The notes under the pieces: generated by a model | The model's database searches: none | What the model was told of the DNA's origin: nothing | Seen by the model: only the letters and a program-made list of their open reading frames with translations | Program-made: the position numbers and the translations under genes | Shown: piece after piece, positions 38,215 to 60,418 of the stretch | How the letters are laid out: each line of letters starts with the position of its first letter | Numbering within the stretch: the stretch's first letter is position 1 | Assembly (NCBI RefSeq): GCF_026616205.1 | Contig: NZ_JANHGR010000003.1 | Location: forward strand, 62,001-126,000 | Length of the DNA: 64,000 bases | Source: Halolamina litorea | GTDB lineage: Archaea; Halobacteriota; Halobacteria; Halobacteriales; Haloferacaceae | Direction of reading: 5' to 3'

Positions 38215-38222
38215 TTTGTTAG
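38215..38222 (-). promoter_or_regulatory. TAACAA-type box of glmM
   Basis: CTAACAAA on the minus strand is centred 29 bases from ATG 38189. It is one of the set shared by the envelope genes. Confidence 0.5.
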
Positions 38223-38370
38223 CTGGCGTATATCCGGAGTAGGGACGGTGAACGTCCCAGTCACGGATCAAGAGTGAAACCGGGAGCGGCTGGCCTGGTC
38301 GAGGGCGGCGGCGGGCCGGCGCGGTCGGACGGAAGGGTAGCTGCTCAGTCGAGGGCGACTTGCAGTCGGC

Positions 38371-39546
38371 TCAGTCTGAGGCGGTGTTCGGTCCCGTCGC
38401 CCCCTCCTCGTCGGCCGCCGGCCGGTCCGGGAACCGCTCCGGAACGACGTACCCGGGGCCGTGGCCGTCGGCATCCGCCGTCGACGCCGACGACTGCTCG
38501 GCGTCAGAGGGGCTCTCGCCGTTGCGGGCGACCGGGAGGTCGGCGGTCGCCTCGGCGCGGTCGTCAGCCGGCGAGATGGCGTCGTCCAGATGCGCGTTGG
38601 CGTCCCGGTCCATCGCCATCGCCCACGTGAACGCGAGCAGCGCAACGAGTCCGAACCCCAGTGCGGCCGCGCCTCGGGCGAGGGGCGTCGCGGCCGTTCC
38701 CACACCCGGGAGCGCCCAGATTCCGGCACCGACCGCTGCGACCGAGGCGACGACGCCGGCGACGTAAGCGCCGACGAGCGGGTGGAAGTCGAAGACGAGG
38801 TAGTTCGTCCGCAGCCGCCAGAGGAAGTTCCGGAACAGCATCAGCGAGACCCGCGGGACGTACGTGCGGTAGCGAATGTGGCTCTCCTCGTCGCCGTAGG
38901 TGACGGGTCGGGGGACGTCGACGACCCGGAGGCCGGCGACGTTGAGCTTCACCAGGATGTCGTTGCAGTAGCCGTAGAACTCGTACATCGAGTCGATGTC
39001 GGCTGTCTCGAGGGCGTGCAGCGAGATGGCGGTGTAGCCGCTCTGGGGGTCGCCGGCGGTCCAGTAGCCGCTGGCGATCTTCGTGAGCGCGCCCAGGATG
39101 GCGTTCCCGACGAACCGGTGGCTCGGCATCGAGCTGTGGCCCGCCCGGGCGAGAAAACGGTTCCCCTTGGTGTAGTCGGCGTCGCCGTCGACGATGGGGT
39201 CGAACAGGTCGCCGAGCATCTCCGGCTCCATCTGCCCGTCGCCGCCCATCACCGCGGTGAGCTGGATATCGTCGGCGCGGGCGCGCTGGTAGCCGGTCTT
39301 GATCGCGCCGCCGACGCCACGGTTCCGTTCGTGACGGATAGCGACGACACGGTCGCCGTCGTCGTCGCCCCGCCCGGCGGCGCGGTCGACGGCCGTTCTG
39401 ATCTCCGCCCACGTGCCGTCGTTCGAGCCGTCGTCGACGACGTAGATCCGGTCGACGAACGCCGGTACGGACTCGATCGTGTCAGCAACGAACCCTTCCT
39501 CGTTGTACGCCGGGATGACGACCGCCGTAGTGTGTCCTCGGTACAT
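38371..39546 (-). CDS. GT2 glycosyltransferase with C-terminal membrane helices
   Basis: The protein has 391 residues. The GT-A domain starts AVVIPAYNEEGFVADTIESV, with the DxD-type DDGSNDGT, acceptor region AVMGGDGQMEPEML and KGNRFLARAG. Two membrane helices follow at about 255-310, then a long acidic tail that looks disordered. The layout matches dolichyl-phosphate mannose/glucose synthases (DPM1/AglD-like), which load a sugar onto the lipid carrier used for S-layer glycosylation. It lies upstream of glmM on the same strand with 181 bases between them, and is divergent from the PKD surface protein. Confidence 0.88.
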   Translation of the reverse strand: MYRGHTTAVVIPAYNEEGFVADTIESVPAFVDRIYVVDDGSNDGTWAEIRTAVDRAAGRGDDDGDRVVAIRHERNRGVGGAIKTGYQRARADDIQLTAVMGGDGQMEPEMLGDLFDPIVDGDADYTKGNRFLARAGHSSMPSHRFVGNAILGALTKIASGYWTAGDPQSGYTAISLHALETADIDSMYEFYGYCNDILVKLNVAGLRVVDVPRPVTYGDEESHIRYRTYVPRVSLMLFRNFLWRLRTNYLVFDFHPLVGAYVAGVVASVAAVGAGIWALPGVGTAATPLARGAAALGFGLVALLAFTWAMAMDRDANAHLDDAISPADDRAEATADLPVARNGESPSDAEQSSASTADADGHGPGYVVPERFPDRPAADEEGATGPNTASD

Positions 39547-39598
39547 TGTGTGCTCGCCGGGGTGTCGGCGATTCGCCCGGCGGTACGACGACCCAACC

Positions 39599-39606
39599 GA
39601 TTGTTA
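39599..39606 (-). promoter_or_regulatory. TAACAA-type box upstream of the GT2 gene
   Basis: TAACAATC on the minus strand lies about 57 bases before ATG 39546. If used, the message has a leader of about 30 bases. Confidence 0.4.
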
Positions 39607-39725
39607 CTCGTTGCCTGCCATCTCGTGGTGACGCGGTCCTGCCACCGTATGTCGGTTCCCGGCTGGGCTGCCGGCACCGCGTGACGGCGACGAGGTTGCG
39701 GCCGGGGGTCCGCGAAATAGACTTA

Positions 39726-39733
39726 TAACAAAG
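39726..39733 (+). promoter_or_regulatory. TAACAA-type box of the PKD surface protein
   Basis: TAACAAAG, within ACTTATAACAAAG, is centred 30 bases before ATG 39760. Confidence 0.5.
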
Positions 39734-39759
39734 CCGGCGAGGCCACCAGTCGCGTCCTA

Positions 39760-42700
39760 ATGAGAGACCGTTTCCCGGTCACAGCCGTGCTACTGCTCGT
39801 CATCGCGCTCGTCATCGCTCCGATCGCCGGCACGACGGTCGTGACTGGCCAACAAGCCGAAACCGGAGCCTACGCCGTCGCCCAGGGGACGACCTGTACC
39901 GTAGTCGACCCTGTCGACGGCGACGAGGACGCCGCGACGTTCTACGACTACCGCAACCCCAACCCCGAGATCACGGGCAACCCTGCAGCGCCGACGTTCA
40001 GCTCCTACGGGACCCTCGAGTACCAGGAGACACACGTGAGCACGATGCTGTTCTACCAGAGCCCAGACCGAACGAGCCTCGTCGTCGTCCACGACCGACT
40101 GGGCGACGAGGCGGGCGGCAGCACGCTCACGATGGACTTCGCGGGGCTGCCCGCCGACGGGGAGTGGATCGTCGAGGACGACGAGTACCCCGGCCGGGAC
40201 GACGAGTGGGACATCGGCGAGACGACCACGTCCGTCGACTGGAAGTGGGCCGACAACCGAACCGACGGCGGCGTCTACGGCGGCATCGGCGGCGCCGACA
40301 CCATCACGATCACGCCGGGGTTCAACGGCAACGCCGACCGCTGGGGGTTCTGGACCTACTCCGGGACTGACGAGTACCGGATGGAGAGCTGGCGCGTGGT
40401 CGGTGCCGACGGGTCGGTTCGCCAACTCGACCTCGACCGCCGCGTGTTCATCCACCCCGGCGGCTGCGAGGAGGGTGAGCCGTCCGCGGCGGTGACCGGC
40501 CCGTCCGCCCTCGAACCGGGCGAGACGTTCACGCTCGACGCGAGCGGGACCACCGACGACGGGGCCATCGGCGGGTACGAGTGGGACTTCGACGGCGACG
40601 GCACGGTCGATCGGGTCACCACCTCGCCCACCACGGCTTACGCCTACGCCGATCGGGGGAACTACACGGTCAGCGTGACGGCGTTCGACACCTACGGCAA
40701 CGGCGACTCGGCTGAGCTGGCGGTGAACGTGACGCCGCCGGCGACCCCGCCCGAGGCCGCGCTGACGGCGCCCGAGCGGGCGACGACCGGCGAGCCGGTC
40801 ACCCTCGACGCGAGCAATTCGACCGACGAAGGGCCGATCGATCGCTACGAGTGGGACGTGGATGGCGACGGCACGGTCGACGCCACCACCACCGACTCCA
40901 CGCTCGAACACACCTACAGCGAGGCCGGGTCAGTCGAGGCGACGGTGACGGTCGTCGATACTGACGGCGAGCGCGACAGCGCCACACGAACGATCGAGGT
41001 ACGAGCACCCAACCGACCACCGAACGCGAGCCTCGACGCTCCGGCGGCCGTCGACGAGGATACGCCGGTCGTGCTGGACGCCAGCGACTCGACGGACGAC
41101 CGCGGGATCACGGAGTACCGCTGGGACGTTGACGGCGATGGCGAAGCCGAGAGCACGACGGCGGAGCCCACGTTCGAACACATCTACGAGACGCCCGGGA
41201 ACGTGACCGCCGCGGTGGTCGCCGTAGACACCGACGGCGAGGAGGCGCGCGCGACCGCCGAGGTCCGAGTCCGGGCGGTTAACGACGTACCGACCGCGGC
41301 GCTCGACGGTCCCGACCAGGCGACCGTCGGTGAACCGGTCACCTTCGACGCGAGTAACTCGACCGACGAAGAGGGTATCGACCGCTACGAGTGGGACGTC
41401 GACGGCGACGGCACGGTCGACGCCAACACCACCGACCCCACGCTCGAACACACCTACGGGGCCACCGGAACGGACGTTGAAGCGACTGTCACCGTCGTCG
41501 ACACCGGCGGCCAGCGGGACACAGCCGCCGTCACGCTCGACGTGCTCGCGCCCGACCAGCCGCCGAACGCCAGCCTCGTCGCGCCGGCGAACGCCACCGT
41601 CGGGACGCAAGTGACGTTCGACGCGAGCGGGTCGAGCGACGACCGCGGGATCACGGAGTACCGCTGGGACGTGAACGGCGACGGCGAGGCCGAGAGCACG
41701 ACCGACGCGCCCACGCTTGCGTACACCTACGACGCCCCCGGGACGTACGAGGTGACGGTCACCGTCGTCGACACCGGCGGCCAGATGGCGACGAACACCT
41801 CCACCACGGTCGCGAGGCTGCCCGCGACCCCGCCGGATGCCGTGCTGACGGCCCCCGAGCAGGTGACGGTCAATCGGTCTGTTGCCCTCGACGCGAGCAA
41901 TTCGACCGACGAAGGTCGGATCGTTCGCTACGAGTGGGACTTCGACGGCGACGGCACGGTCGACGCCAACACCACCGGCCCCACGGTCGAACACCGCTAC
42001 CGGGGCGTCAGTAGCGTCGAAACGTCGGTGACCGTCATCGACGATGATGGCGAGCGCGACACCGCGACACGAGCGGTCGAGGTGTTGCCGCCGAACCAAC
42101 CGCCGAACGTCAGCCTCAACGCGTCCGCAGTAGTCGACGAGGACACGCCGGTCGTACTGGACGCAAGCGACTCGAGCGACGACCGCGGGATCGCGGAGTA
42201 CCGCTGGGACGTGGACGGCGACGGCACCGCCGAGGCCAACACGACCGACGCCACGTTCGAACACGTCTACGAGACGCCCGGGAACGTGACCGCCGCGGTG
42301 GTCGTCGTGGACAGCAACGGCGAGAGCGCCCGGGCGACGGCCGAGATCGAGGTCCGGCCGGTCGACGACGCCCCGACGGCGGCCGTCGTCGGGCCGGCGG
42401 AGGTCCCCCGAAACCGGACGAACACCTTCGACGCCGGCGGCTCGGCCGACGAGGAGGGGATCGACCACTACGAGTGGGACTTCGACGGCGACGGGACGGT
42501 CGAGGCCAACACCACCGCGTCCACGGTCGAGCACGCGTTTGCGGCGCTCGGCACGTACGACGTGACGGTCACCGTCGTCGACACTGGCGGTCAGACGGCG
42601 ACGAACACCACCACCACGACCGTCGTCGAACCACCGACGCCGCCGACGGCCGTCCTGACGGTCCCCGACGGAGCAACGGTCAACGAGACCGTCGTGATGA

Positions 42701-44241
42701 ATGCGAACGGCTCGACCGACGGTGAGCCGAACGACGGCGGCGATGACGGAGAGGGCGGCGAGGATGGTGACGACGGAGAGGACAGTGATGACGGAGACGA
42801 CGAAGGCGGGGAGGACGCTGACGACGGTGATGACGGAGACGACGAAGGCGGGGAGGACGCTGACGCGGTCGGCATTCAGCGCTACGAGTGGGACTTCGAC
42901 GGCGACGGGACCATCGACAGGAGGACCGACGGGCCGACAACGGAGTACACGTTCCAGACGGCCGGGCGGAAGACGATCCGGCTGACCGTCGTCGGCGCGG
43001 ACGGCGAGACGAACACGACGAGTGCGACGCTTGCCGTGGGCGATCCGGACGCCGCGGTTGCTTCGATCGACGTGAACACCGGCGACCCGACCGCCGGGGA
43101 CTCGGTCACGTTCGGGGCCGGCGAGTCGACGGCCGCAAGCCCGATCGTGGAGTACACGTGGCAGTTCGGCGACGGCGCCACCGCGGGCGTCGGGGGAACG
43201 TCGGTCCAGCACAGCTACGACTCGGCCGGCAACTACGACGTGACCCTCCAGATCACGACCGAGGGCGGGGTGACCGCCACGACGACCACGACGGTCACCG
43301 TCGGCCAGGCTGGCGGGAACAACGGTGGTGGCGGCAACAACGGTGGTGGCGGCAACACTGGCGGCGGTGGCAACGACGCTGGCGGCGGTGATAACGACGC
43401 CGGAGGGAACACTGGCGGCGGTGGCAACGACGCTGGCGGTGGCGGCCAGCAGGGCGGCAACGCCGCGCCGGATCCACAGCCGGACCCCGAGCCGACAGCA
43501 ACGCCCGAGCCTGAACCAGAGCCCGAACCCGACCCGACGCCGACGCCCGAGCCCGAACCGGAGCCGGAGCCGGAGCCGGATATCGGGCAAGCGAACGTCA
43601 CGTTCCTCAACGACAGCCTGCTGACCGGGGAGACGCTGGTCGTCGAGGCGACCGTGGTGAACAACGGGAACGCGACCGGCAACAAGACCGTCGAGTTCGA
43701 GGTCGAGGGGACCGTCATCGAGAGCCGATCGCTCTCGCTCGTGCCCGGCGAGCGCCGGACGCTGACGTTCAGCCGACAGTTCGACTCGGCCGGCCGGAAA
43801 GCCGTCGAGGTCGATCAGGGACGGACACGGATCATCGTCGTCGAACCGCGCGTGCCGAACATCAGCGTCTCCTCGCTCCGGGTCGAGGAGGGCGCGGTCG
43901 GCGCCGGCGAGCGCTTCACCGTCACGGCGACGGTCAGGAACAACGGGACCGCCAACGGCAACCGGACAGTGACCCTGCACCTGTTCGGCGAGGAGTTGGA
44001 GACGCGAACGGTCTCGGTCCCAGCGGGCGAGGAACGTGAGGTCTCGTTCTCCCGCTCGGTGATGGCCGCGGGGAACTACGACGCGACGGTCGGCAACCAG
44101 TCGGTCACGGTCGAGGTCCTCGCCGACACGGACACCGACGGGGCCACGGCGACGACGACGACCGAGATCCCGGGCTTCGGCGCGGTGCTGGCGACCGTCG
44201 CGCTGGCGGTCGCGCTACTCGTGCGCCGTCGACGGGTGTGA
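39760..44241 (+). CDS. Giant PKD/CARDB repeat surface protein with PGF-CTERM anchor
   Basis: The 1493-residue protein is secreted: a Sec signal (VTAVLLLVIALVIAPIAG) is followed by a 200-residue N-terminal domain with two Cys. Ten PKD domains run from about 241 to 1180, each with a YEWDFDGDGT-type motif. The ninth has an acidic Asp/Glu/Gly insertion. A Gly/Asn linker (about 1183-1235), a Pro/Glu linker and two CARDB domains (about 1275-1455) follow. The C-terminus TTEIPGFGAVLATVALAVAL followed by Arg residues is a PGF-CTERM signal, cut and lipid-linked by archaeosortase. Expected role: cell-surface adhesion or scaffold. Many NxS/T sites are visible. The promoter has the TAACAAAG box. Confidence 0.9.
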   Translation: MRDRFPVTAVLLLVIALVIAPIAGTTVVTGQQAETGAYAVAQGTTCTVVDPVDGDEDAATFYDYRNPNPEITGNPAAPTFSSYGTLEYQETHVSTMLFYQSPDRTSLVVVHDRLGDEAGGSTLTMDFAGLPADGEWIVEDDEYPGRDDEWDIGETTTSVDWKWADNRTDGGVYGGIGGADTITITPGFNGNADRWGFWTYSGTDEYRMESWRVVGADGSVRQLDLDRRVFIHPGGCEEGEPSAAVTGPSALEPGETFTLDASGTTDDGAIGGYEWDFDGDGTVDRVTTSPTTAYAYADRGNYTVSVTAFDTYGNGDSAELAVNVTPPATPPEAALTAPERATTGEPVTLDASNSTDEGPIDRYEWDVDGDGTVDATTTDSTLEHTYSEAGSVEATVTVVDTDGERDSATRTIEVRAPNRPPNASLDAPAAVDEDTPVVLDASDSTDDRGITEYRWDVDGDGEAESTTAEPTFEHIYETPGNVTAAVVAVDTDGEEARATAEVRVRAVNDVPTAALDGPDQATVGEPVTFDASNSTDEEGIDRYEWDVDGDGTVDANTTDPTLEHTYGATGTDVEATVTVVDTGGQRDTAAVTLDVLAPDQPPNASLVAPANATVGTQVTFDASGSSDDRGITEYRWDVNGDGEAESTTDAPTLAYTYDAPGTYEVTVTVVDTGGQMATNTSTTVARLPATPPDAVLTAPEQVTVNRSVALDASNSTDEGRIVRYEWDFDGDGTVDANTTGPTVEHRYRGVSSVETSVTVIDDDGERDTATRAVEVLPPNQPPNVSLNASAVVDEDTPVVLDASDSSDDRGIAEYRWDVDGDGTAEANTTDATFEHVYETPGNVTAAVVVVDSNGESARATAEIEVRPVDDAPTAAVVGPAEVPRNRTNTFDAGGSADEEGIDHYEWDFDGDGTVEANTTASTVEHAFAALGTYDVTVTVVDTGGQTATNTTTTTVVEPPTPPTAVLTVPDGATVNETVVMNANGSTDGEPNDGGDDGEGGEDGDDGEDSDDGDDEGGEDADDGDDGDDEGGEDADAVGIQRYEWDFDGDGTIDRRTDGPTTEYTFQTAGRKTIRLTVVGADGETNTTSATLAVGDPDAAVASIDVNTGDPTAGDSVTFGAGESTAASPIVEYTWQFGDGATAGVGGTSVQHSYDSAGNYDVTLQITTEGGVTATTTTTVTVGQAGGNNGGGGNNGGGGNTGGGGNDAGGGDNDAGGNTGGGGNDAGGGGQQGGNAAPDPQPDPEPTATPEPEPEPEPDPTPTPEPEPEPEPEPDIGQANVTFLNDSLLTGETLVVEATVVNNGNATGNKTVEFEVEGTVIESRSLSLVPGERRTLTFSRQFDSAGRKAVEVDQGRTRIIVVEPRVPNISVSSLRVEEGAVGAGERFTVTATVRNNGTANGNRTVTLHLFGEELETRTVSVPAGEEREVSFSRSVMAAGNYDATVGNQSVTVEVLADTDTDGATATTTTEIPGFGAVLATVALAVALLVRRRRV
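40484..43310 (+). repeat. Ten-unit PKD repeat array
   Basis: Repeat units of about 270 bases encode domains of about 90 residues. Units 2-4 and 6-8 match each other in order (for example VDEDTPVVLDASDS in units 3 and 7), a higher-order period near 1085 bases. Confidence 0.75.
42781..42864 (+). repeat. 42-base tandem repeat encoding an acidic tract
   Basis: Positions 42781-42822 and 42823-42864 are identical except for one base (GACAGT versus GACGGT). They encode DSDDGDDEGGEDAD and DGDDGDDEGGEDAD within the ninth PKD domain. Confidence 0.75.
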
Positions 44242-44297: not shown

Positions 44298-45677
44298 TCA
44301 ACAGCCGTTGTTCCGGACGACCGTTCCTCGGGTTCCGGTACGCGAGATGAGGTTGTTGTCGCCGCTCCCGCAGACGGTGTTGTTGACGACGCGCACCCCG
44401 ACGGTGCCACGGAGGTCGACACCGTCATCGTCGTTGCGAACGACCTCGTTGTCCTCGATCACGCCGTCGACGATTCCCCGGAAGAACACGCCGTCGTTCC
44501 GGTTGTCGAGGAACCGGTTCCCCCGGACGACGACGCCGGTACTGTTCTGAGCGTCGAGCCCGTCGTCGCCGTTTTCGGCCGCGAGGTTCGCGGTCACCGT
44601 CGCGTCGTCGCCGACGACGTAGAAGCCGTCGTCGGCGTTGGCGCGGGCCGTGTTGTTGTCGATGAGACCCCAGGCCGAGCCGGCGAGGGAGATGCCGTCG
44701 TCGCGGTTCGCGACCGCGGTGTTGTTGACGATGCTGACCTGTTTCGTGCCGCCGACACGGATGCCGTCCCGACTCCGAACCACGCGGTTCTGCCTGACGG
44801 TCACGTCGGAGGCGTCCTGAACGAGGATCCCGTTCCCGTCGCCGTCGGCGACGGTGTTACCGACGATCTCCGTCGGCCCGATGGGCTCGGGCGGCGAGAG
44901 GATCACCGCGATGAACAGCGGCGCGTTCCCGCGGTAGTCGTCCCGCCAGTCGCCGCCCTCCCCGGCGAGGTGGATGCTGGTACCGTTGACCGAGCGCAGT
45001 TCGTTCCCGCTGATGGCTACGCCGGCCGAGTCGGTCACCTCGATCCCGCCACGGGTGGCGTTGATCCGGTTGTCGGAAACCTGCACACCGTCGCCGGCAG
45101 CGACGTCGACCGCGAAGCCGCCGGTGGCCTCGATCTCGTTCCCGACGATGTGGCCGTCGTCGGCCCGGAGGTGGATACCGGTGCCCGCGAGGTCGTGGAT
45201 GTGCGTGTCGGTGACGACGAGGTTCGTGCTCCCGCCGAAGGCGGCGACGCCGAGCGCGCCGTTCGTGATCGTGCTGTTCCGGACCGTCACGTTCTCCGCG
45301 CCTCCGGTAGCGGAGACGGCGGTCGACCAGCCAGTCAACGTCACGTTCGTGACAGTGAGGCCGGTGACGCCGTCGGTGGCGACACCGATGCCGCTCTCGT
45401 TGCCGACGATGGCGTAGCCGTTGCCGTCGATGGTCACGCCGTCGGCCCGGACCGTGAGGCAGTCGCCGGCCGAGGGCGCGGTGACGTTGCCCCGGAGTTC
45501 GTACGTTCCCGGTTCGTCGATCGGGCCACACTCCGTCAGGGCGGTCGATGAGTCAGCCGCCTGCAGGGCCGCGGGCGCGCCGGCGACGACGCCCGGGATC
45601 CCTGCGGTCACGACGAGCGCGGCGGCGAAGGCAGCGAGTACCATCCGTCCGGTTCGATCAGTCAACACCTGTTGCAT
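44298..45677 (-). CDS. Secreted right-handed parallel beta-helix protein (NosD-like)
   Basis: The protein has 459 residues. A signal peptide (LAAFAAALVVTAGIPGVVAG) is followed by repeated beta-helix coils such as GVTIDGNGYAIVG, NRVVRSRDGIRVGG and NTARANADDGFYVVG. The coil pattern NxxxxNxDDGIxL is typical of NosD/PbH1 carbohydrate-binding or -cleaving proteins. The two Cys in the N-terminal part and two near the C-terminus may form disulfides. There is no anchor, so it may be released or bound to the surface. It is convergent with the PKD protein. Substrate unknown. Confidence 0.82.
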   Translation of the reverse strand: MQQVLTDRTGRMVLAAFAAALVVTAGIPGVVAGAPAALQAADSSTALTECGPIDEPGTYELRGNVTAPSAGDCLTVRADGVTIDGNGYAIVGNESGIGVATDGVTGLTVTNVTLTGWSTAVSATGGAENVTVRNSTITNGALGVAAFGGSTNLVVTDTHIHDLAGTGIHLRADDGHIVGNEIEATGGFAVDVAAGDGVQVSDNRINATRGGIEVTDSAGVAISGNELRSVNGTSIHLAGEGGDWRDDYRGNAPLFIAVILSPPEPIGPTEIVGNTVADGDGNGILVQDASDVTVRQNRVVRSRDGIRVGGTKQVSIVNNTAVANRDDGISLAGSAWGLIDNNTARANADDGFYVVGDDATVTANLAAENGDDGLDAQNSTGVVVRGNRFLDNRNDGVFFRGIVDGVIEDNEVVRNDDDGVDLRGTVGVRVVNNTVCGSGDNNLISRTGTRGTVVRNNGC

Positions 45678-45851
45678 AGTCGTCGCAACCCATGCGAGAC
45701 GTACGTAATGTAAGCAACACCTTTCTTCCCCCGAGAGCCCGTCGCTGTGGGGATTTCGCGCCATCCGAGGATCGACGGTTTGCAGTCGAAATCAGACACT
45801 ACGCAGGCGTCAAAGAGCGCCTTCCCGGGGCGAGCGCAGTGAAGCAGTGCC

Positions 45852-45859
45852 TAACAAAG
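45852..45859 (+). promoter_or_regulatory. TAACAA-type box before the DUF1616 region
   Basis: TAACAAAG is centred 28 bases before ATG 45884. It may drive the small frame and the DUF1616-YdjM genes together. Confidence 0.45.
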
Positions 45860-45883: not shown

Positions 45884-46048
45884 ATGCGAGACAGGGAGCT
45901 GAACCCGGAATCAGCCGCAGTCGAGCGAGGGGGCGACGACCGGCGATGGACCGGACGGCGGGGCGTCAACAACGACCTACTCCGGCAGGACCGTCACGAC
46001 ACGGGCGAACGAACGCGGTGCGGAACATCGAGCAGCCGAGGAACGTGA
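45884..46048 (+). CDS. 54-residue candidate protein
   Basis: ATG 45884 is preceded by GGAGGTG seven bases away and by the TAACAAAG box 28 bases away. The product reads MRDRELNPESAAVERGGDDR, continuing with basic, Gly-rich sequence. Both signals favour translation, but the composition is not clearly protein-like, so it could be a leader. Confidence 0.3.
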   Translation: MRDRELNPESAAVERGGDDRRWTGRRGVNNDLLRQDRHDTGERTRCGTSSSRGT

Positions 46049-46136: not shown

Positions 46137-47156
46137 ATGAGCACGGTGCGTTCGACCCGGGAACGGTCGAGTTCACTCACGGACGTGACGGACCTGCTCG
46201 TCGTCGCCGGCTACACGGGAGTCGCAGTCGCGCTGCTGGCCGGCGGCGTCGTCGAGGGGCCTACCCGCGTGTTGCTCGCGGGGGCACTCCTGGGGTTCTG
46301 TCCCGGCTACGCGGTCGTCTCGGCGCTGTACCCGGTCAGGGCCGCACAGCGGCGGAACCAGCCCCAGCCGGGATGGGCCGAACGGGGTGCCATCGCCGTG
46401 GGTACGTCGCTGGTGTTGCTCGTGCTCGGGGTGCTCCCGTTCTCGGTGCTCGGGTTCGGAACCGGAGCCGTACTCGGGGTGGTGCTGACGGTCACGCTGG
46501 CGGGGATCGCCGTCGCCGCGGTGCGTCGCCTCCGAGTGCCCGCCGACGAACGGATCAGGCTCCCGGTTCGGCGCCTGTACCGGGACGCCCGCGAGGCGAC
46601 CGTCGACGCCCCGTCGGTCGACGCGGCGTTGAACGTCGCGCTCGCCGTCGTCGTGGTCGTCGGCGTGGTCACGCTCGCGGTCGGACTCGCGGCCCCGGAC
46701 CGCGGGGTGCACTACTCGGAGGTCGCGCTGGCGGACGGCGCCGACGGCGAGTGGACCGATACCGACACGTTCCAACAGGGGGCGGCGGCGTCGCTCCCGC
46801 TGTTCGTCGAAAACGACGACGACGAGGACCACAACTACACGGCGGTCGTCGTGCTCGAACGGTTGGGCGACGCGCGGAACAACGGGACTGCCGGCCCGGC
46901 CGTGTTGGAGCGGGCGGCGCTCTCGCGGGCGACAGTGACGGTTCCGGCGGGCGAGGGGACGACCAGACGGATCGAGTTCACCCCGCCGCTGCGTGGCTCG
47001 GAGCTACGCCTGAGCGTCTACGTCTACGTCGAGTCGGAACCGGAAACGCCCGGGGCGGAGAGCGCGGACTACCACCTCTACCGCTGGGTCGACGTGAACG
47101 AGGGGGCCGGCTCGCTCGCGGGGAGTGAGACGGTCGGAGCGGCCGCGGGGAACTGA
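46137..47156 (+). CDS. DUF1616 family membrane protein
   Basis: The protein has 339 residues. Helices lie at about 18-38, 42-62, 84-104, 106-128 and 160-185; LLAGALLGFCPGYAVVSALY is the family core after helix 2. The C-terminal half is an extracellular beta-sandwich (YTAVVVLERLGDARNNGT, then RGSELRLSVYVYVESEP) with NxT sites. DUF1616 proteins are common in archaeal surface-protein and glycan neighbourhoods, but their role is unknown. The YdjM-type gene starts two bases after its stop. Confidence 0.82.
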   Translation: MSTVRSTRERSSSLTDVTDLLVVAGYTGVAVALLAGGVVEGPTRVLLAGALLGFCPGYAVVSALYPVRAAQRRNQPQPGWAERGAIAVGTSLVLLVLGVLPFSVLGFGTGAVLGVVLTVTLAGIAVAAVRRLRVPADERIRLPVRRLYRDAREATVDAPSVDAALNVALAVVVVVGVVTLAVGLAAPDRGVHYSEVALADGADGEWTDTDTFQQGAAASLPLFVENDDDEDHNYTAVVVLERLGDARNNGTAGPAVLERAALSRATVTVPAGEGTTRRIEFTPPLRGSELRLSVYVYVESEPETPGAESADYHLYRWVDVNEGAGSLAGSETVGAAAGN

Positions 47157-47158: not shown

Positions 47159-47728
47159 GTGTGGCCGTGGGACCACGTCGCCGCGGGCTACCTGCTGCTC
47201 TCGGCCCTCCACCGACTGGGGTGGCGACGGCCGCCGTCGCGCCGGGCCGCCGTCGTCGTCGCCGGCGCGGCGGTGCTACCGGACCTGATCGACAAGCCGC
47301 TCTCGTGGTGGCTGGCCGTACTGCCCTCGGGGCGCTCGCTGGGCCACTCGCTGCTGGTCGCGCTCCCCTTGGTGGCGGTCGTGGCGGCCGTGGGGCTCTC
47401 GACCGAGCGGCGGTCGGTCGCACTCGCGTTCGGGGCTGGCTATCTCAGTCACCTCGCCGGCGACGTCGCCTACCCGCTGCTCGTCAAGGGCGAACTCCGC
47501 GTCGGGTTCCTCCTGTGGCCGCTGGTGCCGGCCGACTCGAGCGGCGCCGGCGGCGGCCTGCCGTACCTGACCGACCTGGTCGACGACTTCATCGGCTTCC
47601 TCTCGACACCGGCCGGCGCGCTCTACGCCGCCGCCGACCTGACGCTGCTCGGGCTCGCACTCCTCGCCTGGGTGGTGGACGGCCGAACGGCGAAACCACA
47701 CGCGGGCAGTACGGTCGAGGACGGCTGA
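47159..47728 (+). CDS. YdjM/DUF457-type metal-dependent hydrolase, membrane-bound
   Basis: The protein has 189 residues and four to five membrane helices. The family His/Asp motifs are seen as MWPWDHVAAGY, AVLPDLIDKPLSWW, RSLGHSLLVAL and YLSHLAGDVAY. The GTG start at 47159 follows the DUF1616 stop by two bases, so they form an operon. Family members are called LexA-binding, inner-membrane-associated putative hydrolases; the reaction is unknown. A metal site near the membrane face fits lipid or glycolipid substrates, but that is inference. Confidence 0.78.
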   Translation: MWPWDHVAAGYLLLSALHRLGWRRPPSRRAAVVVAGAAVLPDLIDKPLSWWLAVLPSGRSLGHSLLVALPLVAVVAAVGLSTERRSVALAFGAGYLSHLAGDVAYPLLVKGELRVGFLLWPLVPADSSGAGGGLPYLTDLVDDFIGFLSTPAGALYAAADLTLLGLALLAWVVDGRTAKPHAGSTVEDG

Positions 47729-47769
47729 ACCGGTCGCGCTAACGGGGGTCGGCGCGGGTACCGGCCCCA

Positions 47770-47777
47770 TAACAAAC
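47770..47777 (+). promoter_or_regulatory. TAACAA-type box of the Gfo/Idh gene
   Basis: TAACAAAC, within CCCATAACAAACCCCC, is centred 28 bases before ATG 47802. The same CATAACAAACCCC string precedes the epimerase gene on the other strand. Confidence 0.55.
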
Positions 47778-50320: not shown

Positions 50321-51295
50321 TCAGTGGTGAACGGGGTTGGCCACCAGCAGGTCTTCGAGCCCCGCCTCCAGCGAGACGGCTGCCTCGAAGCCGAGCCGTT
50401 CGCGGGACCGGGTGGGGTCGGCACGACTGTTGCGGATCTCGCCGGGCCGGGGTTCGGTGTGTTCGATCGGCACGTCGGTGCCGGTCAGCTCCCGCACCAT
50501 CGCCGCGAGGTCCTCGATCCGGATGCTGTCGCCGGTCCCGATGTTGAACGCCTCGCCGACGGCGTCGGTCGTCGCCGCCGCGAGGTTCGCCCGGACCACG
50601 TCCTCGACGTGGACGAAGTCCCGCCGCTGTTTGCCGTCGCCGTCGACGACCAGCGGCTGCCCGGCGCGTGCCTTGTCGCGGAACGCGTTGATCACCCCGG
50701 CGTCCTGCCCCGGCCCGTAGACGTTGAAGTAGCGCAGCGCGACGGTTTCGAGGTCGTAGCGGTCGTGATAGAGCCGGACGTAGTGATCGGCCGCGAGCTT
50801 GTCGACGCCGTAGGGGGAGGTCGGGTCAGTCGGTTCGTCCTCGGCGATCGGGACCGTCTCGGGGGCGCCGTAGATGGCGACGCTGGAGGCGAAGACGACG
50901 CGGGCGTCGTTTCGCCGGGCGGCTTCGAGCACGGCGAGGGTGCCGTCGACGTTGCGCTCGTGGCTCTCGATCGGGCGTTCGAGCGACTCGGGGACGCTGA
51001 CCAGCCCGGCCTGGTGGAAGATCGTGTCGACGCCGTCGGCGGCCGGAACCAGCGCGCCGGTCTCGCGCACGTCGCCGTGGACGAACGTGGCTTGCTCGGG
51101 GACGCGCTCGCGGCGGCCGTCCGAGAGGTCGTCGATCACCCGGAGGTCACACGCGTCGGCGAGCGCGCTGGCGAGGTGGCTCCCGACGAAGCCCGCCCCG
51201 CCGGTGACGAGGACGGTCTCGCCGCGGAGCTGTTCGGGTACCTGCACCGAGCCTGCAGCGGGGGGGCGGTCGTCCGTGGGTCGGTCGCGTGCCAT
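50321..51295 (-). CDS. NAD-dependent sugar nucleotide epimerase/dehydratase (GalE-like)
   Basis: The 324-residue SDR enzyme has the glycine motif VLVTGGAGFVGSHLASAL and catalytic SPYGVDKLAADHY (Tyr-x3-Lys). Other motifs are ALRYFNVYGPGQ and FVHVEDVV. The length and sequence fit UDP-glucose/UDP-GlcNAc 4-epimerases of the extended SDR type. It supplies an activated sugar for the glycan made by the locus. It has its own TAACAAAC box 28 bases upstream and lies 62 bases after the flippase gene. Confidence 0.88.
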   Translation of the reverse strand: MARDRPTDDRPPAAGSVQVPEQLRGETVLVTGGAGFVGSHLASALADACDLRVIDDLSDGRRERVPEQATFVHGDVRETGALVPAADGVDTIFHQAGLVSVPESLERPIESHERNVDGTLAVLEAARRNDARVVFASSVAIYGAPETVPIAEDEPTDPTSPYGVDKLAADHYVRLYHDRYDLETVALRYFNVYGPGQDAGVINAFRDKARAGQPLVVDGDGKQRRDFVHVEDVVRANLAAATTDAVGEAFNIGTGDSIRIEDLAAMVRELTGTDVPIEHTEPRPGEIRNSRADPTRSRERLGFEAAVSLEAGLEDLLVANPVHH

Positions 51296-51318: not shown

Positions 51319-51326
51319 GTTTGTTA
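51319..51326 (-). promoter_or_regulatory. TAACAA-type box of the epimerase gene
   Basis: TAACAAAC on the minus strand, in CCATAACAAACCCCG, is centred about 28 bases from ATG 51295. Confidence 0.55.
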
Positions 51327-51357
51327 TGGGGCGTGTACCGGGTCTGTGGCGGCCCAC

Positions 51358-52827
51358 TCAGGTGAGGAGTTTGGCCACCCGGCGGATGTTGAGCACGCCG
51401 CCGAGCACGGAGAGCGTCGCCCACATCGCCGCGCCGAGGAACACGACGGCGAGCAGCGAGGGGAGGTCCGAGACGTAGGGGAGCGCCCCCCAGACCACCG
51501 CGGCCATCCCGGTCGTGATGATGGCGGTGACGACCAGCCGGCGCGCCACCGCGTGCACGTCGACGGGGAGCTCTTGGGTGATGAAGTAGACGTTCGACCC
51601 CGTATAGATCGTGTAGGTGATGACGGTGGCGACGGCGGCGCCGACGACGCCCATCGCCGGGATCAACACGAGGTTCAGCCCGAAGTTGCTCACCGCCATC
51701 GCGGACTTGATGATCGCCCGCGACCGCGCCCGGCCGAGGTAGTCGAGGCCGTCGCTGGTGACCTTGTTGACAGCGTTGACGAGCATGAAGCCGCTGAACA
51801 CCTGCAGTGTCGTGACGGCGCCGAGGTAGTCGGGGCCGAACACGTACCGAACCATCGGCTGAGCGACGAGGATCAGGCCGACGACGGCTGGGACGTACGC
51901 CAGCAGGACGTACTGGAGCGAGCGCTCGTAGAGGGTCGCCGCACGCTGGGTCTCGTCCTTCGATGACTGCTCGCCCAGCGCCGGCGAGATGGTGTAGCCG
52001 AACGACGACGCCGGCGCGGCGACGAAGTCCGAGACCTGCTTGGCGACGGTGTAGTAGCCGACTGCGGTCATGTCGATCAGGACGCCGACCAGCAGCGTGT
52101 CGACTTTCTTGTCGAGTACGTTCGCCCCCCGGGTCGCCGTCAGCGGGACGCTGTACTCGAGGAGGCGACGGGTGAGCCGGTCGCTCGGCGCGTCGTCGGC
52201 GTCGTAGGAGCGGTAGAAGCGGGTGTAGACGACGTACGCGCCCATCGCTGAGGCCAGCGCGAACGCGAGCACGTAGCCCGCGACGGCCCCGACGACGCCG
52301 AAGCCGAGTGTCACCATCAGCACCACCAGCGGCAGGCGGGCGACGCTCGAGACGGTCGTGACCAGCGCGCTCCAGTCCACCCGGTTCAGCCCCTGGAACA
52401 CCGTCGCGAAGTAGCTCTGGTACGCCCGGCCGGCGACGTAGAGGCTGCCCACAGCCAGCAGGCCGCCGACGGCCGGCGAGCCGGTGAGTCGGAGCACGGT
52501 CGGCCCCAGTACCACCGTCCCGAGGACGACGGCGGCGATCATGATCGTCAGGTAGAACGCCGACTGCCGCAGGACGTGGGGGACCTGTCCCGGGTCGGTC
52601 TCGGTGAACTCCGTGACGTACCGCGCGGTGGACTTGGGTAGGCCGAGCGTGGCGAGGATCGTCACCACCCCCAGCGCCGAGAGCGCGAAGTTGAGTCGAC
52701 CGTACTCCGCCGGCGAGAACAGCACCCGGGTCAGCACCAGCACGAGCAGCCCGCTCGAGACGAGGTTCAGCATCGTGGCCGCGAAGCTGGCTTTGACCCC
52801 CCGGGCCAAGCGGTCGACGAGCGCCAT
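51358..52827 (-). CDS. Polysaccharide flippase (Wzx/MOP superfamily)
   Basis: The protein has 489 residues and about 14 membrane helices. The N-terminus GVKASFAATMLNLVSSGLLV, then LVLTRVLFSPAEYGRLNFAL, is typical of PST/Wzx flippases; GRARSRAIIKSAMAVSNFGL lies in the second half. It should move a lipid-linked oligosaccharide across the membrane. Its ATG abuts the stop of the preceding multi-helix gene (TAGATG), so both come from one message. Confidence 0.88.
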   Translation of the reverse strand: MALVDRLARGVKASFAATMLNLVSSGLLVLVLTRVLFSPAEYGRLNFALSALGVVTILATLGLPKSTARYVTEFTETDPGQVPHVLRQSAFYLTIMIAAVVLGTVVLGPTVLRLTGSPAVGGLLAVGSLYVAGRAYQSYFATVFQGLNRVDWSALVTTVSSVARLPLVVLMVTLGFGVVGAVAGYVLAFALASAMGAYVVYTRFYRSYDADDAPSDRLTRRLLEYSVPLTATRGANVLDKKVDTLLVGVLIDMTAVGYYTVAKQVSDFVAAPASSFGYTISPALGEQSSKDETQRAATLYERSLQYVLLAYVPAVVGLILVAQPMVRYVFGPDYLGAVTTLQVFSGFMLVNAVNKVTSDGLDYLGRARSRAIIKSAMAVSNFGLNLVLIPAMGVVGAAVATVITYTIYTGSNVYFITQELPVDVHAVARRLVVTAIITTGMAAVVWGALPYVSDLPSLLAVVFLGAAMWATLSVLGGVLNIRRVAKLLT

Positions 52828-54657
52828 CTAGGACTCCTCACCCCCCTCGACGCGGTAGAGGCGGAACCCGTCGTTCGCCCTGATCCGGTCGACCCCCGGG
52901 GTCGTCTTCAGCGCCCTGAACCCACGTCTCGGGTAGCGGAACCCCTCGTACAGCCCGGTCTCCTGTTCGTACGTCGCTTCGGTGATCGTCAGGTATCGCG
53001 GCCCGTCGAAGGCGTCCGAGTAGTTCGCGGCGGCGAAGACGGCGGGGCGTATCCCCCGTTCGTAGCCCGGGAACGCGAGGACGTCGCGGGCGTACTGGGT
53101 GCCGTAGTGGTAGTCGACGTAGCGTCGCGGCCCGCCCCTGAGGCCGGTGAAGGGGACGTCGGGATCGCGCGCCTCGAACGCCGCACCGTAGCCGTCGACC
53201 TGTTGGGCCGAGACGTGCCCGGAGGGTTGGTAGACGTACGGCGAGGAATGGACCACCGCCAGCCCGGCGGGCGCGATGACCAACACGATCACGAGGGCGA
53301 GTGCCGCTCCGGACCGACTCCAGCCCGAACTCGTCAGCCGTCCCCGGAGGCCGGCCACCCCGGCGGCGCCGGCGACGGCGATCGGGACCATCAGGAACCC
53401 CTGATAGCGGAAGTACATGTCGCCGTAGCTGGCCGCGAGCATAACGAAGAACAGCCCGACGACGGGGACGAGCCCGGCCGTCAGCAGGAGGGCGAGCGGC
53501 GAGCGCCGGTGGTGCCAGAGCCCGGCGAGCAGCGCGACGGCGGCGAACACCGAGAGCAGCGTCGCGCCGCCGAAGAGCTTGAGGTACACCTCGAGGAGGC
53601 TCCCGCCGACGGTGGTCAGTGAGGTCGATTTCGCGCCGACGACCGCCGCGCCGGTCTCCCCGCTGGTGAGCAGGCGCGTGAGAATGCCCTCGGCGGCGCC
53701 CTGGACGCGGCTGAACCGGGGGGTCCAGATCAGGAACGCACCGAGCAGCGCCGCCGTCGGCGGGAGCAGCGACGGCACGCTGACGATCGGGTGGTCCGAC
53801 CGGTAGCGACGGATACCCCACTGGAGCCCCAGCGCACCACAGAGGAACGCGGCGGCGTTGAGCGCCTGCTGAGGGTGGACGAACACGAACGCCGGCCCCG
53901 TCAGCAGGAGCATCGAGCCAGTCGCTGCCGTCATCGACCGGGTCGTCGCCACCGACGCCCGACTGTCGAGTCCGGTCGCCGCGTACGCGAACACGAGGTA
54001 GAGGACGAACGCGAACAGCAGGATCGCCTGACTGGCCGGGTGGGCCGTCGCGTGGACGGCGATGTTGTTCACCGGGACGAACGCCGCCGCCGCCAACAGC
54101 CCGATGGCGCCGGCTCGGGGAGCGCCGGTGAGGAGGCGAACCGACGCCGGGACGAACAGCAGGAACGTCAGCGGGAACGCGACGAGGACGACGTACAGGT
54201 TCGCCTGCATCGTGGCCACATCGGCGACCCGCGCGACGATCACCGTCGCCGTGTGGACGCCGGGGTAGAGCAGCTCCGTCGGGGCGAGCGAACCGGCGGC
54301 GATCTCGCGAGCCCAGCCGGCGTGGCTGAGTGAGTCGCCCGGGCCGTAGAAGGTGTAGCCACGGAGGATCGGCATCGAGAGGACCGACAGCGCGACGGCA
54401 CCGATGAGCACGAGGGCGGCACGATGAGTGTACCAGCCGGCCGCGTTGGGGTAGTCGCCGTCGTCGAGGAGCGCGACGGTCGTACCGGCGAGGAAGGCGG
54501 CAGCGAGGCCGAGCCAGACGACCGTCGGCGTCGCCCCGTACAGCGATAGCTCGTAGCCCGTCGCCGGGTTCTGCCTGGCGACGGCGACCGCGATAGTCAG
54601 CCCGACGTAGCCAACCACCAGCGAGACCTTTGGGTAGCGGGAAGGGGTTCGTGACAT
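52828..54657 (-). CDS. Large polytopic membrane protein of the glycan locus
   Basis: The protein has 609 residues: about 12-13 helices, then a soluble C-terminal domain of about 130 residues (from about 475) on the outer face. The first outer loop reads YGPGDSLSHAGWAREIAAGS, with acidic and polar residues, like GT-C glycosyltransferases or polymerases. I recognise no named family; it could be an oligosaccharide polymerase (Wzy role) or a GT-C transferase, given the flippase coupled behind it. The start at 54657 follows a TAACAATC box and a 16-base palindrome. Confidence 0.7.
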   Translation of the reverse strand: MSRTPSRYPKVSLVVGYVGLTIAVAVARQNPATGYELSLYGATPTVVWLGLAAAFLAGTTVALLDDGDYPNAAGWYTHRAALVLIGAVALSVLSMPILRGYTFYGPGDSLSHAGWAREIAAGSLAPTELLYPGVHTATVIVARVADVATMQANLYVVLVAFPLTFLLFVPASVRLLTGAPRAGAIGLLAAAAFVPVNNIAVHATAHPASQAILLFAFVLYLVFAYAATGLDSRASVATTRSMTAATGSMLLLTGPAFVFVHPQQALNAAAFLCGALGLQWGIRRYRSDHPIVSVPSLLPPTAALLGAFLIWTPRFSRVQGAAEGILTRLLTSGETGAAVVGAKSTSLTTVGGSLLEVYLKLFGGATLLSVFAAVALLAGLWHHRRSPLALLLTAGLVPVVGLFFVMLAASYGDMYFRYQGFLMVPIAVAGAAGVAGLRGRLTSSGWSRSGAALALVIVLVIAPAGLAVVHSSPYVYQPSGHVSAQQVDGYGAAFEARDPDVPFTGLRGGPRRYVDYHYGTQYARDVLAFPGYERGIRPAVFAAANYSDAFDGPRYLTITEATYEQETGLYEGFRYPRRGFRALKTTPGVDRIRANDGFRLYRVEGGEES

Positions 54658-54692: not shown

Positions 54693-54700
54693 GATTGTTA
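54693..54700 (-). promoter_or_regulatory. TAACAA-type box of the polytopic protein gene
   Basis: TAACAATC on the minus strand is centred 40 bases from ATG 54657, allowing a leader of about 13-17 bases. Confidence 0.45.
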
Positions 54701-54825: not shown

Positions 54826-55113
54826 CTACGCCTGATGCCGGTCGGGCCCGAGCGTGATCGAGCGCAGTATCAGCACCATGCCCGCCGAGACGAGCACCGC
54901 TTGCACGAGCGCCGCCGAGAACAGCGACGTTCCGAGGACGTCGAGGATCAGCCCCTCACAGATGGCGCCGACCCCGATGAAGACGAACCCGACCGAGACG
55001 TAGATCATCGGCGCCTGCTCGCTGCGCCGGTAGGCGTAGAACGCGAGGTACGCGACCGAGAGACTGAGCAGCAGCGCGATCAGCTTGACGGCAACGATCG
55101 GGATGCTGGTCAT
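54826..55113 (-). CDS. Small three-helix membrane protein, second copy of the wHTH partner
   Basis: The protein has 95 residues and three membrane helices (about 5-27, 37-57, 64-86). SVAYLAFYAYRRSEQAPMIY matches the loop after helix 1 in the copy at 8531-8809. Its start overlaps the regulator stop by four bases, exactly as in the first copy. Function unknown. Confidence 0.7.
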   Translation of the reverse strand: MTSIPIVAVKLIALLLSLSVAYLAFYAYRRSEQAPMIYVSVGFVFIGVGAICEGLILDVLGTSLFSAALVQAVLVSAGMVLILRSITLGPDRHQA

Positions 55114-55469
55114 ACGTTCTCTCTGAACTCCTCCCAGAGCGACGTGAAGTTATCGGCGAGTTCGTCGCGGGTCTCGACGGAGAGTTCGAGTTCGCCGTCG
55201 TCGACCCTGACGTGGAACGCCTCGATCGTCGTCTCGAACAGCCGTTTGTGTTCGCCGCCGGAGCCGACCGTCGAGTGGACGGCGATGAGCCCGCGCTCCT
55301 CCAGCGTGGAGATTCGTCGGTAGACCGTCGCGAGCGACGCGTCACAGATCCGGCTCAGGCTCTTGGCCGTGCGTGGTTCCTCGTCGGCCGCGAGGATGAT
55401 CTGCCGGGAGTACTCGTCCGCGAACACTCGCAGGAGGGCTTCGGAGTCCCCGGCTTCGCCCGTCGTCAT
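55110..55469 (-). CDS. Winged-helix regulator, second copy of the wHTH/membrane pair
   Basis: The protein has 119 residues. The HTH is seen in AKSLSRICDASLATVYRRIS, followed by TLEERGLIAVHSTVGSGGEH and the wing. The end, NFTSLWEEFRENV, parallels LAELWSDMGEEL of the protein at 8154-8534. It sits inside the glycan/redox region, next to a divergent thiol-related membrane protein gene. Confidence 0.78.
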   Translation of the reverse strand: MTTGEAGDSEALLRVFADEYSRQIILAADEEPRTAKSLSRICDASLATVYRRISTLEERGLIAVHSTVGSGGEHKRLFETTIEAFHVRVDDGELELSVETRDELADNFTSLWEEFRENV

Positions 55470-56316: not shown

Positions 56317-56427
56317 GGCGCGTGGGGCTGGAACCCCCCTCGACGGTTCCTTCCTCCAGCCGCCAGCTTGTTTTCGAGGTCGGAGAATCACCGGTCCCCA
56401 CTTGTACGCGTCCCCGCTACGGTCACT

Positions 56428-58318: not shown

Positions 58319-58394
58319 ACCGCCGGGACCGAGGAGGTCGGTACGCCGACAGCGCCGGCGTGGACTGGGGAGCGCCGACGGCGAGTCCCCCGGG

Positions 58395-59381
58395 TCAGCC
58401 GTCGACCACGTCGCGATAGATGTCGAGGAGCCGTTCGCCGGTCCGCTGGACGCTGATCTCCCGAACCGCAGCGCGGCCACGAGGACGGTCGTCGGTCGTG
58501 AGAGCGTCGATGAGGCCATCGACGAGTTCGGCGTCGCTCGCACAGACCCACGAGTGGTCGAGGCCCGCAAGCCGCGTGGCCACGTCGCCCACGTCCGTCG
58601 AGACGACCGGGACGTTACACGCGAGGGCCTCCTTCACCGCGTTCGGCGACCCTTCGTGAGTGGAGGTGAGCAGCAGCGCGTCGGCGGCGTTGAGGTAGGA
58701 TGGCATCCCGTCGTGGGGGACGCCGGTCACCGTGTGGAGTTCGATCGGATCGGACACGCGCTGGCTGGCCGCGTCGACGATCCGCTGGGCCCGCGGGTAG
58801 TTCTTCACGCCGCGCTCGGGGGGGTAGGGAAACAGCACGTGGTGGCCCTCGGCGTCCCAGCCGACGCGTTGGCGAGCGGGGCCCGTCGGCGCGGGCTTGA
58901 ACAGCGACAGATCGACGCCGTGGGGGAGGACGTGTGCCTCCCGGCCCAGGTCCTCGGCCATCGCCGGCGACATGACGACGACGGCGTCGGCGAAGCGGGC
59001 ACAGAACCGGCTCACCGGGCCGTACTTCCCGTAGAGGTCGGTCCCCCACAGCGAGAGCACGACGGGGAGGTTCGGCTGGCAGATGGCGTGGGGCGCGGTC
59101 AGCCCGTAGTTTGCGTGGATCAGGTCGTAGTCGTCGAAGGACGCCGAGAGCACGTTCGGGTAGAGCCGCGCGTAGTCGACCACCGATCGGCCGGAGGTGT
59201 CGCCGTCGTCGTACTCGCGGTGGCCCGGCACCGAGAGCGTCGTACAGTCGACCCCGAGACTTTCGAGGGTACGAACCTGCTGGTCGAAGAAGCGCGACTG
59301 CTCGCTGGGGACGAGGTTGAGCACGCGCATGTCGGTCGACGCCTCGGGCGGCGTCGCCGTCCCGCTGATCGGTTCGCTCAT
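58395..59381 (-). CDS. GT4 family glycosyltransferase
   Basis: The 328-residue GT-B fold enzyme has the start MRVLNLVPSEQSRFFDQQVR after a short acidic lead. The acceptor-side region is LWGTDLYGKYGPVSRF. The donor-site motif EGSPNAVKEALACNVPVVST contains the two Glu of the E-x7-E signature. It adds a sugar to the surface glycan. ATG 59381 overlaps the stop of the FemAB-like gene (ATGA), so both are translated from one message. Confidence 0.88.
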   Translation of the reverse strand: MSEPISGTATPPEASTDMRVLNLVPSEQSRFFDQQVRTLESLGVDCTTLSVPGHREYDDGDTSGRSVVDYARLYPNVLSASFDDYDLIHANYGLTAPHAICQPNLPVVLSLWGTDLYGKYGPVSRFCARFADAVVVMSPAMAEDLGREAHVLPHGVDLSLFKPAPTGPARQRVGWDAEGHHVLFPYPPERGVKNYPRAQRIVDAASQRVSDPIELHTVTGVPHDGMPSYLNAADALLLTSTHEGSPNAVKEALACNVPVVSTDVGDVATRLAGLDHSWVCASDAELVDGLIDALTTDDRPRGRAAVREISVQRTGERLLDIYRDVVDG

Positions 59382-60385
59382 CGACTCACCAGCCGGTAGG
59401 CCGTCTTCGCGGCGGCCATGCCGGCCCCGCCGGACTCCAGTGCGTAGTAGGGGACGAGCGAGGCGCCGAACTTGCTCTTGTACCGACAGAGTCGCTCGGT
59501 GTTCGCCCCCATCAGGTCGTAGGTGTCGACCGACTCCCGGGGGTCGCCGGCGGCGATATCCTCGATGATCCGCCAGTGGAGCAGGCCGTTGACGCTCGTG
59601 CCCTCGTAGACCGAGCGGTTGCCCCCGAGCCAGAAGTACGCCGCGTCGTTGCTGTACAGCACCACCATCCCCGAGAGGAACTCGTCGTCGGGGCCGCGAG
59701 CGACGTAGGTCCGGCAGCGGTCCGTTTCGGCCAGCGCCTCGGTGAGGTCCTCCACGTACGCGCGGTCGAGGGCAAACCCTCGGTCCTGTTCGGCGTAGCG
59801 GTCCCGGGTGCGGTCGTAGATGCGGCCGACAGGCTCGGTACCGCCGCGCTCGATTGTCACGTCCAACTCTTCGGCGTCTCGGATCTCCCGCCGCAGACTC
59901 TTGCTGAACGAAGAGCGCAGGGCGTCGGTGTCCTCGCCGACGGCGAGGTGGTAGGTGAACCGCGTGTCGAGCGAGAGGTCGGACCACACGTACGGCCGCG
60001 GGTCGGGGTAGCTCGTCGGGCAGGACAGGCGGAACAGCGTCAGGGAGTCGTCGACGCCTACGTCCTCCAGCACCGCCTCGGAGAAGGTCGCGTTCACCTT
60101 CTCGCGTTTCCGGCGTTTCGGGCTGGCGGGCATCACCAGCGGGCCGAGTCGCGGGATCGAGAACCCCGGCGGCGGCGAGAGCACGGCGCGACCGATCGCC
60201 CGTTCCTGCACCATCGCCGGGAGCAGGCCGACCGGTCGGTCACCCTTGAAGCCCCCGTAGAGCCGGAGTTCGCCGGCGGCGTGGTCATCGAGCACTTGCA
60301 GGGCTTCGGGGGTGTGGAACACCTCGAACCCGTCTGACGGCAGGGCGTCCCCCCACTCGTCGATCGTCAGCTGTCGGACCTCCAT
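59378..60385 (-). CDS. FemAB/GNAT-type transferase
   Basis: The protein has 335 residues with two GNAT-like halves. Key segments are SSFSKSLRREIRDAEELDVT, YDRTRDRYAEQDRGFALD and SGMVVLYSNDAAYFWLGGNR. The end, YDLMGANTERLCRYKSKFGA, is typical of the FemAB/BioF2-like family. In bacteria FemAB enzymes add amino acids to peptidoglycan amines using aminoacyl-tRNA; archaea lack that polymer, so the acceptor must differ. The gene has its own TAACAATC box and is coupled to the GT4 gene. Confidence 0.8.
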   Translation of the reverse strand: MEVRQLTIDEWGDALPSDGFEVFHTPEALQVLDDHAAGELRLYGGFKGDRPVGLLPAMVQERAIGRAVLSPPPGFSIPRLGPLVMPASPKRRKREKVNATFSEAVLEDVGVDDSLTLFRLSCPTSYPDPRPYVWSDLSLDTRFTYHLAVGEDTDALRSSFSKSLRREIRDAEELDVTIERGGTEPVGRIYDRTRDRYAEQDRGFALDRAYVEDLTEALAETDRCRTYVARGPDDEFLSGMVVLYSNDAAYFWLGGNRSVYEGTSVNGLLHWRIIEDIAAGDPRESVDTYDLMGANTERLCRYKSKFGASLVPYYALESGGAGMAAAKTAYRLVSR

Positions 60386-60410
60386 TAGCTGCGAGCAGTG
60401 GGGCCGACCC

Positions 60411-60418
60411 GATTGTTA
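60411..60418 (-). promoter_or_regulatory. TAACAA-type box of the FemAB-like gene
   Basis: TAACAATC on the minus strand is centred 30 bases from ATG 60385. Confidence 0.5.

Follow-up and report, generated by a model that had tools for sequence, protein, structure and literature searches.

The DNA analysed here is a 64-kb stretch of the 3.02 Mb genome of Halolamina litorea (G000; contig C3, positions 62001-126000; hereafter the window), in which the heptamer TAACAAW (W = A or T; hereafter the box) recurs before genes for envelope glycans and surface proteins. We put at about 0.7 the probability that this box forms the core of a class of haloarchaeal promoters in which it replaces the TATA box before such genes, with activator-dependent use. 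As read from the DNA, the element would probably switch the envelope genes on as one group. The features seen directly lie in cis, namely sequence, position, conservation, rigid spacing, absence from the sampled ordinary promoters and the functions of the target genes, and from them we infer factor identity, start sites and the effect on expression. A preliminary description of this stretch had read the box as a dedicated promoter element for an envelope regulon, served by a dedicated pair of transcription factor B (TFB) and TATA-binding protein (TBP) or by a regulator. Conservation, position, enrichment and target function all lend strong support to the predicted element, while the dedicated TFB/TBP pair is not borne out.

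Box abundance and position

TAACAAW was observed 11 times in the window, compared to 0.79 ± 0.95 times in shuffled sequence, and none of 100 shuffles reached 11. The whole genome holds 37 boxes, and the binomial probability that 11 of them fall in the window is 2e-10. Genome-wide, 13 boxes have an ATG 23-28 bases on, versus 0 for the reversed control. Chance or base composition as the origin of the boxes was thus ruled out by the shuffles, the reversed-pattern controls and the genome-wide count. All nine boxes listed previously were recovered, together with two more on the minus strand, at 35704-35710 and 14527-14533. The first, before glmS, is probably a real site, and the second is probably a chance match.

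Genes were called with a codon model, and the gap was measured as the number of bases between the end of the box and the ATG. The gap is 24-27 bases for the boxes before PadR, glmM, PKD, the small frame, Gfo/Idh, the epimerase and FemAB, so that the box covers about -32 to -26 from the ATG. The common position ahead of envelope genes that had been noted earlier therefore holds for seven of the nine listed boxes, and the larger distances noted for a family 2 glycosyltransferase (GT2) and a polytopic protein correspond to gaps of 53 and 36 (the latter to the nearest ATG). In related cluster DNA amounting to ~ 1.0 Mb, gaps of 25 (41 cases), 26 (29) and 27 (15) form a sharp peak. By this peak the element falls about 25 to 32 bases ahead of the start, which matches the position expected in a canonical haloarchaeal promoter with a TATA box and a TFB recognition element (BRE).

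Ordinary promoters look different. Background promoters were taken from sampled stretches of the G000 genome, and 131 upstream regions showed a T-rich box at -30 to -26, in agreement with the T/A-only boxes first described for ordinary genes. In a sample of 86 chromosomal genes that leave space for a promoter, neither TAACAAW nor the looser TWACWWW was found at the TATA position, whereas cluster genes carry TAACAAW there in 7 of 46 cases and TWACWWW in 10 of 46. An equal frequency before unrelated genes, which would have spoken against the regulon, was therefore not seen (0/86 ordinary versus 7/46 cluster genes). Because ordinary genes have the T-rich box at this place and none of the 86 carries either motif, we conclude that the box occupies the place of the TATA box and, within the sampled stretches, is special to the envelope gene set. 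The canonical T-rich TTWT is missing from these genes, which have TAACAAW or TWACWWW instead. Variants of the TWACWWW type were accepted only inside the cluster or where conserved, since outside the glycan region this looser motif matches unrelated genes (a phosphate transporter, a CPBP protease and a DUF2267-like gene, all recognised by eye).

The extended element

We aligned 98 TAACAAW sites anchored on the box, counting offsets upstream from it. The profile shows GG at -13/-12, W at -11, A at -10, CG at -7/-6 and A at -1. Over its full length of ~ 20 bp the element reads GGWA-n2-CG-n4-A-TAACAAW; it is polar, with rigid internal spacing. TA is found at -11 in 44 of the 98 sites, compared to 1-4 at the flanking offsets (-14 to -12, -10 to -8), and TA at -11 is also carried by intergenic boxes without a near ATG but not by boxes within genes. 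CG stands at -7/-6 in 42 of the 98, and the AAA of the BRE motif CGAAA is not conserved. The RTA and ATA steps are 11 bp, or one helical turn, apart. Inspection of the 98-site profile revealed no dyad or palindrome.

A box acting in the mRNA leader, as a signal for translation or mRNA stability for instance, could likewise keep the fixed distance to the start codon that is seen in many genes. However, haloarchaeal mRNAs mostly lack leaders (PMC4983044), the box stands where the TATA box would otherwise be, and the upstream GWA is retained where the box-to-ATG distance differs. We regard a role in the leader as extremely improbable.

Conservation in Halobacteria

Searched for in related haloarchaea, as had been proposed, the box recurs at the TATA position before orthologous genes across genera and families. 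It is present in orthologous promoters of other Halolamina, Halobaculum, Halorubrum and Halobacterium, and was also found in Halohasta salina, Haloarcula marismortui, Haloterrigena, Halostagnicola, Halobellus, Haloferax mediterranei and H. lucentense. An extended pattern, WA-N8-ATAACAAW-N24-28-ATG, gave 556 matches in 155 Halobacteria genomes, spread over nine of ten families, versus 42 for the reversed pattern used as control. In 50 genomes of other classes the figures were 171 and 134. The element is therefore a feature of the class Halobacteria. The pattern had no match in 35 of the 155 genomes, among them the Halolamina genomes G001 and G005, which together with G004 we refer to as box-poor; four Halolamina are box-bearing, including G000, G002, G003 and G006.

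In Haloarcula, chromosomal box promoters are kept genus-wide before genes for PqqD-like, DUF7511 and FG-GAP proteins (for example at C8:543000, C8:2247594 and C8:1094146 of G244), and the regulon is thus not confined to plasmids.

Boxes and their target genes

The targets in the window are glmS, glmM, glycosyltransferases, a flippase, an epimerase, Gfo/Idh, a FemAB-like acyltransferase, a PKD/PGF-CTERM protein, DUF1616 and PadR. At 20 hand-picked motif loci from other genera and families, the downstream genes encode two epimerases, two FemAB-like proteins, three GNAT acyltransferases, DUF354, a PKD protein, FG-GAP repeats, a GH26 hydrolase, PqqD and a DUF7344 protein. Some of these identities were assigned by eye (the FemAB pair, the third GNAT, the second epimerase and the PKD protein), and in this informal comparison the genes form a coherent set. 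Glycan, acyltransferase and surface-protein genes make up most of the targets.

The full 20-bp element stands before three of the window genes. It precedes the Gfo/Idh gene (47802-48920) as GGTACCGGCCCCA-TAACAAA at 47757-47776 (plus strand; box 47770-47776; gap 25), the sugar epimerase gene (50321-51295) as GGTACACGCCCCA-TAACAAA at 51320-51339 (minus strand; box 51320-51326; gap 24), and the FemAB-like acyltransferase gene (59378-60385) as GGTAAGGAGGGGG-TAACAAT at 60412-60431 (minus strand; box 60412-60418; gap 26). In the counts of ortholog promoters, for which the loci of some genomes are partial and some relatives are paralogs, the box was found at 10 of 10 epimerase orthologs and in 10 of the 14 genomes with a Gfo/Idh relative, including Halobacterium bonnevillei and Halorubrum aidingense. 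The element of the FemAB-like gene is kept in most relatives.

TAACAAA at 38215-38221 on the minus strand lies 25 bases from glmM (36846-38189; Arch_GlmM; box at 9/11 orthologs), and TAACAAA at 39726-39732 on the plus strand lies 27 bases from the gene for a PKD-repeat protein with PGF-CTERM (39760-44241; 9/9). The GT2 gene (38371-39546) has TAACAAT at 39600-39606 on the minus strand with a gap of 53; this gap is 50-53 in most relatives, and the box is kept in 9 of 12 orthologs. TAACAAT at 54694-54700, also on the minus strand, is ahead of the genes for the 609-aa polytopic protein (52828-54657; box at 13/19 orthologs) and the flippase (51358-52827). The box before glmS (33701-35521; NCBIfam), TAACAAT at 35704-35710, has A at -10, CG at -7/-6 and A at -1, and its position would call for a long leader or a different start. 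On the plus strand, TAACAAT at 32231-32237 is 25 bases from the ATG of the PadR-type regulator gene (32263-32565, plus strand), whose box is also found in G002, G003, Haloterrigena and Halostagnicola.

TAACAAA at 45852-45858 on the plus strand is ahead of the genes for DUF1616 (46137-47156) and a YdjM-like protein (47159-47728). It had been assigned to a small frame (45884-46048, 54 aa), and while the box does stand ahead of that frame, the frame itself is not conserved in relatives; it is probably not a gene and likely a leader. In several relatives the distance from box to DUF1616 is 67-77 bases, so the box more probably acts on the DUF1616 operon by way of a leader.

Variants occupy the same place at other promoters. 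The sugar nucleotidyltransferase gene (30136-31386) is preceded by TTACTTT at 30104-30110 on the plus strand, with TA at -11/-10, CG at -7/-6 and a gap of 25, and four Halolamina share this architecture with a TTACTTW box. TTACATT at 45707-45713 on the minus strand (coordinates counted from the upstream sequence) lies before the NosD/beta-helix gene (44298-45764), where TTACAWT is kept at the same place in relatives. TAACTAW was a further variant.

Outside the cluster in G000, the box was observed before genes for an FG-GAP surface protein (C2:41823) and a CetZ tubulin (box C3:45904). The CetZ gene (C3:45939-47132; locus L011:5939-7132) has a TAACAAA box at a gap of 28, which may connect cell shape with the glycan regulon. 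The same TAACAAT context was seen at C3:16087 and C3:266800, 250,713 bases apart on a contig of 267,810 bases, which suggests that C3 is a circular replicon of ~ 250.7 kb assembled with a 17-kb overlap.

Candidate readers of the element

A dedicated TBP was rejected, as two TBP genes are present in the box-bearing G000, G002 and G003 and equally in the box-poor G004 and G005. A dedicated TFB working with the common TBP, for which the box would be the TATA/BRE combination, would fit an element that is polar and sits at the TATA/BRE position as a core element should, in haloarchaea with many TFBs. One TFB group does occur in all four box-bearing Halolamina; it is also found in the box-poor G001 and G005, which weakens a role for TFB, and a tree of the TFBs from six genomes plus one TFB of G001 contained no group exclusive to box-bearing genomes. 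The window's own TFB (6890-7861) is absent from the box-bearing G002 and G003, has near relatives only in G006, and was discarded as the reader. A proxy for TFB number, a rough first-look count of candidates, does not follow box number (rho -0.003), the TBP repertoire is the same, and GWA, at about -43, would lie beyond the expected TFB contact region. We consider a dedicated TFB unlikely.

The PadR encoded in the cluster raises a different explanation, that the element is a repressor operator over a hidden promoter. PadR has its own box in several genomes, which fits feedback. Usual PadR operators are palindromic, and the element is not; most of these promoters show no further A/T-rich element, and the fixed distance to the start suits a core element better. 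PadR copy number is uncorrelated with box number (rho 0.11), and PadRs were present in all 147 genomes searched, so PadR was rejected as the reader. An operator of this kind is very improbable, and the PadR gene appears to be a target of the box rather than its obvious reader. The PadR gene of G006 is not broken, as its apparent internal stop is the natural gene end.

Among regulators, DUF7344 proteins are the best candidates so far. Two of their genes flank glmS/glmM in the window: one at 33107-33631 on the minus strand (Pfam PF24035, E 7.8e-30), and a second at 36055-36654 on the plus strand, adjoining glmM. The structure model of the first (pLDDT 80; best Foldseek E 0.0096, weak) has a winged-helix-like domain and two long C-terminal helices, which are probably membrane helices. 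Of 31 genomes, 19 have DUF7344 homologs in their cluster loci, and 18 have homologs of the second protein there. At two other loci (L216 and L055) a DUF7344 gene has a box upstream. Box number correlates with DUF7344 number across 58 genomes (rho 0.53, partial rho 0.47 once size is accounted for, and 0.58 in the largest genus) in an exploratory comparison, one of three families tried, with phylogeny corrected at genus level only. We found no paper on DUF7344 in the open-access literature.

A winged-helix protein (55110-55469) paired with a DUF7521 membrane protein was also considered as the reader and set aside, with weak homologs in the loci of only 7 of 31 genomes. The pair spans 54826-55469 in the glycan cluster, and a similar pair of a helix-turn-helix and a small hypothetical protein was observed in the Haloferax mediterranei cluster (L165).

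For the activator-dependent promoter class proposed here, the element would stand about 25 bases before a mostly leaderless start, with the general TBP and a common TFB placing RNA polymerase at TAACAAW. The CG where a BRE would lie, together with the off-consensus C of the box, would make a weak site for TBP/TFB. A sequence-specific activator on GWA, one helical turn upstream, would make the weak site work and tie the genes into one regulon, with the DUF7344 winged-helix membrane protein as the best candidate. Two observations weigh against this proposal. The conserved boxes of the GT2, DUF1616 and polytopic genes are 33-80 bases from the annotated start, so that their transcripts would have to carry leaders. 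The DUF7344 family is large and extends to genomes without the box, which makes its link to the box a correlation only; G022, of the same family, has 22 copies and no extended-motif match, reflecting either a changed motif or another DUF7344 role. A more far-reaching version is offered only tentatively: DUF7344 proteins, a haloarchaeal family, may be dedicated membrane-anchored activators that read GGWA-n2-CG-n4-A-TAACAAW, couple envelope state to surface-glycan transcription and replace the TATA box as the deciding signal class-wide.

Significance and comparison with known systems

The means by which haloarchaea bring dozens of dispersed genes for glycans, export and surface proteins, many of them on megaplasmids, under common control are poorly understood. 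A polar element common to the class offers a ready regulon marker in genomes without expression data, gives a tangible example of how promoters may be told apart in archaea that have many TFB paralogs, and directs attention to an uncharacterised family of candidate regulators, DUF7344. No prior description of the motif or regulon was found in the open-access literature; subscription papers were outside the search, and an earlier mention is possible.

The canonical haloarchaeal core promoter consists of a TATA box TTWT, a BRE CGAAA and a -10 WW (PMC4983044). The TAACAAW element resembles it in standing ~ 25-30 bases before a mostly leaderless start and in its CG at -7/-6, which is similar to the start of the BRE. 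It differs in the invariant C in an A-rich strand in place of TTWT, in the extra GWA ~ 11 bp upstream, and in its restriction to an envelope regulon. The archaellum (fla) promoter of Methanococcus maripaludis depends on the activator EarA, which makes up for a weak core promoter by aiding TFB recruitment (PMC5512572; PMC13286277). Both systems concern an archaeal surface-structure regulon, and the EarA-type trait of a conserved site just upstream of a weak core element, at rigid spacing, is seen here in TA at -11; the sites, class and targets are different, and the activator here is only a candidate. The CsmR regulon of Haloferax volcanii, with its semi-palindromic TATCA-N4-TGATA upstream of BRE/TATA (PMC13286277), is likewise a haloarchaeal surface and cell-shape regulon whose motif is positioned with respect to the core promoter. 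Unlike the CsmR site, the TAACAAW element is polar and sits in the TATA position itself.

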